Source of the DNA: Sphingosinicella humi
GTDB taxonomy: Bacteria; Pseudomonadota; Alphaproteobacteria; Sphingomonadales; Sphingomonadaceae
DNA: 64,000 nucleotides
Reading direction: 5' to 3'
Assembly (NCBI RefSeq): GCF_003129465.1
Contig: NZ_QFFF01000002.1
Location: 62,001-126,000, forward strand
The notes beneath the pieces are model-generated. The model made no database searches and was not told the origin of the DNA. It saw nothing but the letters and a program-made list of their open reading frames with translations. A program made the translations under genes and the position numbers. Positions 59,535 through 64,000 of the stretch are shown here, in pieces; positions within the stretch are counted from its first letter, which is position 1; the number at the start of each line of letters is the position of its first letter.

Positions 59535-59535
59535 C

Positions 59536-59651
59536 CGTCATCCGGGCAAAAGCCGGGATCCAGGAACGCGCTACGAGCAGCATAGGCGATCAAATCATCG
59601 CTTCACCTGATTTCACCGGTGTTCTTGGGCCCGGCTTTCGCCGGGATGACG
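59536..59651. repeat. Palindromic intergenic repeat, family C
   Basis: The left arm CGTCATCCGGGCAAAAGCCG (continuing GGATCCAGGAACGC) is complementary, with mismatches, to the right arm GTGTTCTTGGGCCCGGCTTT (continuing CGCCGGGATGACG). It lies 2 bp after the holB stop and before metG. It has diverged more than the copy at 25432-25541. Confidence 0.85.
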
Positions 59652-62055: not shown

Positions 62056-62816
62056 AGCTCCGAATCCTCGGCTGCGGCACTTCCTCAGGCGTTCCCAGGA
62101 TCGGCAATGATTGGGGCCGCTGCGACCCCAGGGAACCGAAGAACCGCCGCCGACGCGTCTCTATTCTGATCGAGCGGGCGGAAACGCGCATCCTCGTCGA
62201 CACGAGCCCGGATCTGCGCGAACAACTGCTCGACGCCGACGTCGCCGATCTCGATGCGGTGATCTGGACCCACGATCATGCCGATCATTGTCACGGCATC
62301 GACGATCTGCGGCAGGTCTTCCATGCGCGAGGCGCGCCCATTCCCGGCTATGCCCGCGCCGATACGCTGGCGACGCTCGAAAACCGCTTCGGCTATGCGC
62401 TTGAAGGCAATGATGGTTATCCCTCGGTCGTCGATGCTGCGCTGCTTCCGGACGCGTTAGCGATCGGCGCCATACAAGTGCGGGTCGTGGACCAGCCGCA
62501 CGGGTCGATCTCATCGGCAGGACTCCGCTTCGACGCCGGCGGGAGGTCGATTGGATATTCTACGGACTTCAATGTCTTAACCGGCGACATGGCCACGCTG
62601 TTCAAAGGCGTCGACGTGTGGATCGTCGATGCACTCCGCCGCCATCCGCACCCGACCCACCCGCATCTCCAGCAGGCGCTCGACTGGATCGATGCGGTTC
62701 AGCCGGGCCGCGCCATATTGACGCATATGGACAACAGCATGGACTATGCCGAGCTGATGGCGGAACTCCCGCAGGGTGTGGAGCCGGGCTATGACGGGCT
62801 CGAGGCGGAATTGTGA
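62052..62816 (+). CDS. MBL-fold metallohydrolase (PhnP-like)
   Basis: The 254-aa metallo-beta-lactamase-fold protein has the metal motif WTHDHADHCHGIDDLRQ (HxHxDH), an early GCGTSSGVPRIGNDWGRCD, YSTDFNV and the late ILTHMDNSMDY. It resembles the PhnP/RNase Z-like phosphodiesterases, and the substrate is probably a phosphodiester. GTG 62052 lies inside the tatD stop, and its own stop overlaps the next gene by 4 bp. Confidence 0.88.
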   Translation: MKLRILGCGTSSGVPRIGNDWGRCDPREPKNRRRRVSILIERAETRILVDTSPDLREQLLDADVADLDAVIWTHDHADHCHGIDDLRQVFHARGAPIPGYARADTLATLENRFGYALEGNDGYPSVVDAALLPDALAIGAIQVRVVDQPHGSISSAGLRFDAGGRSIGYSTDFNVLTGDMATLFKGVDVWIVDALRRHPHPTHPHLQQALDWIDAVQPGRAILTHMDNSMDYAELMAELPQGVEPGYDGLEAEL

Positions 62817-63412
62817 ACGACGGAGATCAAGCCGCTAATTTCATTTATCTTCTGGGTGTGCTGGTACTTGTCGGCAGCGCCCTCATGGTGCGGCGCATCC
62901 CGATCCGACAGGGTCTCAAGATGGGCCTCGCATGGGTCCTCATCTTCCTGGCCATCTTCGTCGTCTTCGCGCTGCGGAGCGACTTCGCCGCTTTAGGCGA
63001 CCGCCTCATGCAGTCGGCGCAGGGGCCGGCGACGCCGGTGCAGCAAGGCGAGACGCTGCGTGTCCGCCAGGCCATGGACGGCCATTTCTGGGTCGACGCC
63101 GAACTCAATGGCGAGACGGTCCGCTTCCTGGTCGACAGCGGCGCCACCACCACGAGCCTGTCCACGGCGACCGCGCGGCGAGCCGGCATCGAGCCCAGCG
63201 GCGGCTTTCCCGCCATCGTCCAGACCGCCAACGGCACCGTCGCCGTTCAGCGCGGCCGCGCCGATCGGATCCAGGTAGGCTCGATCGTCCGCGAAGGTCT
63301 GGCCGTCCACATCTCGGACGGCTTCGGCGACACCAATGTCCTCGGCATGAATTTCCTCTCGTCGCTTTCCGGCTGGGGCGTCGAGGACGGCTGGCTGATC
63401 TTGCGGCCATGA
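62813..63412 (+). CDS. Retropepsin-like membrane aspartic protease (TIGR02281 type)
   Basis: The 199-aa protein has two N-terminal transmembrane helices (residues 10-27 and 37-54), then a soluble clan AA domain with the catalytic Asp in FLVDSGATTTSLS and LGMNFLSSLSGW near the end, the pattern of the alphaproteobacterial TIGR02281 family. Only one catalytic Asp is present, so a homodimer is expected. GTG 62813 overlaps the MBL stop. The dif-like site begins 40 bp after the stop. Confidence 0.87.
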   Translation: MNDGDQAANFIYLLGVLVLVGSALMVRRIPIRQGLKMGLAWVLIFLAIFVVFALRSDFAALGDRLMQSAQGPATPVQQGETLRVRQAMDGHFWVDAELNGETVRFLVDSGATTTSLSTATARRAGIEPSGGFPAIVQTANGTVAVQRGRADRIQVGSIVREGLAVHISDGFGDTNVLGMNFLSSLSGWGVEDGWLILRP

Positions 63413-63451: not shown

Positions 63452-63479
63452 ATTTTACATAATGTATATTATCGGACTT
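63452..63479 (-). other. Candidate chromosomal dif site (XerCD recombination site)
   Basis: On the minus strand the 28 bp divide into AAGTCCGATAA (XerC arm), TATACA (centre) and TTATGTAAAAT (XerD arm). The XerD arm matches E. coli dif (TTATGTTAAAT) at 10 of 11 bases, and the plus strand shares the 15-bp core CATAATGTATATTAT with E. coli dif. The AT-rich 28 bp stands out in GC-rich DNA. It lies 4 bp before the mazG start. Confidence 0.75.
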
Positions 63480-63483
63480 AAAG

Positions 63484-64000
63484 ATGACCCAGACTGAAGG
63501 GGCCCCACACGCCTCCCTCGACGATCTCGTCGCCGTCATGCGCCGGCTTCGCGACCCGGAGACCGGATGCGAATGGGACCGCGTCCAGACGTTCGAGACG
63601 ATCGCTCCCTATACGATCGAGGAAGCCTATGAAGTCGCCGATGCGATCCGCCGTAGCGACATGGCGGACCTCAAGGACGAGCTTGGGGATCTCCAGCTCC
63701 AGGTCGTCTATCACGCCCGCATCGCCGAGGAACTCGGCGCCTTCGACATCGATGACGTCATGGCGTCGATCACCGCCAAGATGATCCGCCGCCACCCGCA
63801 CATCTTCGGCGATCAGGCGGAAAGCCCCGGCTGGGAAGCCTTGAAGGCCGAGGAACGCGGCCGGCACGAGGACAAGAGCGCGCTCGCCCATGTCGCCCAG
63901 GCGTTGCCGGCGCTGAAGCGCGCCGACAAGCTTCAGAAGCGCGCCGCCCGCGTCGGCTTCGACTGGCCGGATGCCAGCGGCCCGCGCGCGAAGATCATCG
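63484..64000 (+). CDS. mazG: Nucleoside triphosphate pyrophosphohydrolase MazG, 5' part
   Basis: MazG hydrolyses NTPs/dNTPs to monophosphates. The first 172 codons are present and run off the window. From ATG 63484 it starts MTQTEGAPHASLDDLVAVMR, then LRDPETGCEWDRVQTFETIA with the family's CxWD motif, the metal-binding EEAYEVADAI and LKDELGDLQLQVVYHARI (E-x-x-E and E-x-x-D), and RRHPHIFGD. The dif-like site sits between its start and the upstream gene. Confidence 0.93.
   Translation, partial: MTQTEGAPHASLDDLVAVMRRLRDPETGCEWDRVQTFETIAPYTIEEAYEVADAIRRSDMADLKDELGDLQLQVVYHARIAEELGAFDIDDVMASITAKMIRRHPHIFGDQAESPGWEALKAEERGRHEDKSALAHVAQALPALKRADKLQKRAARVGFDWPDASGPRAKII

Follow-up and report, generated by a model that had tools for sequence, protein, structure and literature searches.

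The 28-bp sequence at positions 63452–63479 of a 64,000-nucleotide stretch of Sphingosinicella humi DNA (the window) can be identified with near certainty as the dif site of the chromosome in this sphingomonad (Alphaproteobacteria). Its position, copy number and conservation support the assignment well, as does the strand polarity of the motif GGGNAGGG, and by analogy with the Escherichia coli system the site probably supports Xer recombination. It is an ordinary example of a well-known kind and is found across relatives. The first-pass annotation had named the same 28 bp as a candidate dif site marking the replication terminus at the end of the window, and had preferred the chromosomal dif to an integrated Xer-using element; its single copy, its conservation, the GGGNAGGG polarity and the distance to parB support both proposals.

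The plus-strand letters of the site are ATTTTACATAATGTATATTATCGGACTT, and the minus strand, from the XerC arm to the XerD arm, reads AAGTCCGATAA-TATACA-TTATGTAAAAT. Two 11-bp Xer arms surround a 6-bp centre, as in E. coli dif, and the XerD arm is close to TTATGTnAAAT. With the known E. coli sequence as reference, identity to E. coli dif was 19/28 for the minus strand and 18/28 for the plus strand, and the plus strand had an uninterrupted 15-mer, CATAATGTATATTAT, in common with it. Judged from the letters, the minus strand is the correct reading, because the canonical XerD arm TTATGTAAAAT arises only there and falls where expected; the E. coli-like core on the plus strand would suggest the wrong strand. 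The shared 15-bp core and the XerC/XerD-like arms described in the first-pass annotation were recognisable, but it had left the strand unstated, and its plus-strand core suggests the wrong one. In comparison with E. coli, the XerD arm is near-identical (TTATGTAAAAT versus TTATGTTAAAT), whereas the outer XerC arm (AAGTCC versus GGTGCG) and the centre (TATACA versus TGTATA) differ.

Comparison with related genomes revealed strong conservation. The exact 28-mer was present in 11 other sphingomonad contigs, from Sphingomonas, Sphingosinicella, Hephaestia and unclassified Sphingomonadaceae. Among 26 genomes of the genus (our own included), 25 carried exactly one copy with 0–3 mismatches, and the single genome lacking one was 81% complete; some of the 11 contigs belong to these 26 genomes, and the two sets are not independent. 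When 149 genomes from across the order were sampled, a slightly wider pattern matched 36 of them, at most once per genome and always in the same family. Information content was 1.1–2.0 bits at all 28 columns and mostly 0–0.5 bits directly outside, with a few columns of up to 1.0 bit on the side facing mazG, whose start codon is often located there. Conservation that ends so precisely at the edges of a 28-bp Xer site strongly indicates function. Within matching relatives, TTATGT of the XerD arm was invariant and TTATGTWAA nearly so, the centre occurred as TATACA, TATATA, TATGTA or TATGCA, and the outer part of the XerC arm was the most variable segment. XerC arms are known for a variable outer part.

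The window lies within contig C2 (319,587 bp); the genome totals 3.03 Mb, of which 2.70 Mb is in the main contig, C1. At up to three mismatches the 28-mer occurred once in this genome and once in every matching relative, so the search for a second copy proposed in the first-pass annotation returned none. A looser pattern of the core plus the XerD arm gave one extra match with three mismatches, at C1:761970, and a reversed-pattern control gave at least as many. Searches of the window with the exact site and with a degenerate dif pattern each hit this position alone. The site had been picked by eye, which leaves room for a chance AT-rich similarity to dif, but 100 dinucleotide shuffles of the window gave no match to the dif pattern even at three mismatches, and conservation across 25 genomes of the genus refutes this explanation, whose probability we regard as negligible.

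To place the terminus, GGGNAGGG polarity was scanned across the whole of C2 and roughly half of C1, taken as 20-kb pieces. With dif taken as the switch, GGGNAGGG had the top strand bias of all 8-mers containing no more than one N on C2 (80 leading versus 13 lagging), and it is probably the FtsK orienting polar sequence (KOPS), the motif read by FtsK, in S. humi. Fitted independently of dif (C2:125452–125479), the maximum-likelihood switch fell at C2:126488–126560, 1.0 kb from the site, and an alternative split just after C2:123711, within 1.7 log units, brackets it. A two-change-point fit to 380 GGGNAGGG sites placed the terminus switch identically (2-unit support interval C2:123711–129685) and put an origin-side switch at C1 1.175–1.240 Mb, beside parB at 1.257 Mb. 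On both fits dif falls inside the support interval, indicating that GGGNAGGG motifs converge on a single-copy terminal site as they do in E. coli.

The site also lies opposite the origin as marked by parB. In seven relatives with parB and dif on one large contig, the two were separated by 46.9% (G007), 47.8% (G009), 49.1% (G020), 47.3% (G025), 49.2% (G001), 48.4% (G018) and 46.9% (G015) of that contig. In S. humi the separation comes to about 48% or 46% according to the direction in which C2 joins C1, and GGGNAGGG polarity favours the orientation giving 48%. As an origin marker dnaA was dropped, because some 1 Mb separates it from parB (dnaA at C1:2217672, parB at C1:1257286) and the origin-side GGGNAGGG switch adjoins parB. 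The assembly holds 5,000 N inside C1:960001–980000. Locating dif pins the chromosome terminus in this two-contig draft to within a few kilobases, and a sphingomonad dif sequence is now available for genome finishing and dimer-resolution work.

The genome encodes XerC-like, XerD-like and FtsK-gamma proteins (Table 1). By analogy with E. coli, Xer proteins would bind, recombine and be activated by FtsK at the site as follows. When homologous recombination leaves a dimeric chromosome, FtsK, steered by GGGNAGGG motifs aimed at the site from both arms, would pump DNA until the two copies of dif come together at the septum, where it would activate XerD; XerD and then XerC would exchange strands around the 6-bp centre, yielding two monomers before division.

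Two observations weigh against the dif assignment. Both Xer proteins fall under the strict NCBIfam equivalog cut-offs for XerC and XerD, so their labels rest on ranking, these families being the best or second-best match for each. In addition, the cumulative GC-skew maximum on C2 lies at about 51 kb, is shallow, and is some 75 kb from dif (about 2.5% of the genome). The GC-skew check suggested in the first-pass annotation gave a weaker result than expected: being shallow and so far off, the maximum places the terminus only roughly and is not enough on its own to locate the site. Skew was weak throughout the sampled genome, and the window's own skew was uninformative as a terminus locator. Kono et al. 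2011 (PMC3025954), who predicted dif sites for 641 bacteria, describe dif as near, yet not exactly at, skew shift points, and on that account the offset need not count against dif. In this weakly skewed genome, GGGNAGGG polarity places the terminus far better than GC skew. Sphingomonads are unnamed in the main text of that study, and none of the papers searched described a dif site at the terminus in Sphingomonas.

Since Xer-using elements, whether integrative mobile elements exploiting Xer (IMEX) or phages, carry sites resembling dif and rely on the XerC/XerD of their host, the sequence might be the attachment site (attL/attR) of such an element and not the resident dif. No pair of dif-like repeats enclosing foreign DNA was found: genome searches returned no second dif-like copy, C2 had no tyrosine-recombinase match, in agreement with the earlier remark that no mobile element was visible, and the neighbouring genes are ordinary ones that keep their synteny in many relatives. 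Even in six relatives with altered or diverged neighbours (L111, L173, G003, G015, G094 and G181), no credible second dif flanking new DNA appeared in the 18–57 kb examined. We consider an attachment site very improbable.

The same six relatives bear on a further explanation, that the 28-mer is an operator or promoter of mazG and resembles dif by coincidence. Only 4 bp separate the site from the downstream mazG start, which lies no more than about 150 bp from dif in 48 of the 54 genomes compared (S. humi included), a spacing that a regulatory element might have. In L111, L173 and G003, however, mazG is displaced by about 0.5–1.8 kb, and in G015, G094 and G181 it was undetected nearby, yet the 28-mer is retained in all of them; therefore, a role as mazG operator does not by itself account for the site. 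Its dif architecture and the GGGNAGGG polarity switch next to it argue the same way, and a purely regulatory role is about as improbable as an attachment site.

Table 1. Coordinates of the dif site, its parts, the flanking genes and the predicted recombination machinery (window positions unless a contig is given)
Feature	Position	Strand	Basis
dif site, 28 bp, AAGTCCGATAATATACATTATGTAAAAT	63452..63479	minus	Single copy; exact copies in sphingomonad contigs; conservation limited to 28 bp
Predicted XerC-binding arm, AAGTCCGATAA	63469..63479	minus	Position relative to E. coli dif
6-bp central region TATACA, putative place of strand exchange	63463..63468	minus	Analogy with E. coli dif
Predicted XerD-binding arm, TTATGTAAAAT	63452..63462	minus	Conservation in relatives
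TIGR02281 clan AA aspartic protease gene	62813..63412	plus	NCBIfam match above cut-off
mazG, nucleoside triphosphate pyrophosphohydrolase	63484..64000, continues beyond window	plus	NCBIfam NF007113 and TIGR00444 above cut-off
XerC-like protein (L127)	C1:262368 region		Best match XerC
XerD-like recombinase (L126)	C1:2539414 region		XerC/D subfamily NF001399 above cut-off, XerD next
FtsK with gamma domain (L134)	C1:1246379 region		

As anticipated, dif occupies a short intergenic gap, the 71 bp between the end of the protease gene (63412) and the start of mazG (63484). The order protease–dif–mazG is the usual arrangement in the family, and most relatives within the genus have the protease gene on the same side of dif as here. 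In S. humi dif makes up most of the mazG 5ʹ leader, and it is conceivable, though quite improbable, that XerC/XerD occupancy at the terminus affects expression of mazG, whose product is a house-cleaning enzyme. If so, the frequent protease–dif–mazG order would be functional rather than inherited by default. In the relative G003 (L104 1511–2600), about 1.8 kb separates dif from mazG, and a minus-strand open reading frame at 1595–2524 of L104 (309 aa) looks by eye like a polynucleotide kinase-phosphatase. Elsewhere in the window, a short repeat-like intergenic stretch at 59535–59650, in which a repeat finder run near 59.55–59.65 kb detected no inverted pair at the tool's settings, separates metG from the DNA polymerase III delta' gene; its sequence (GACCGTCATCC...AAAGCCGGGATCCAG ... 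CCGGCTTTCGCCGGGATGACGG) resembles the scattered inverted-repeat elements of sphingomonads.
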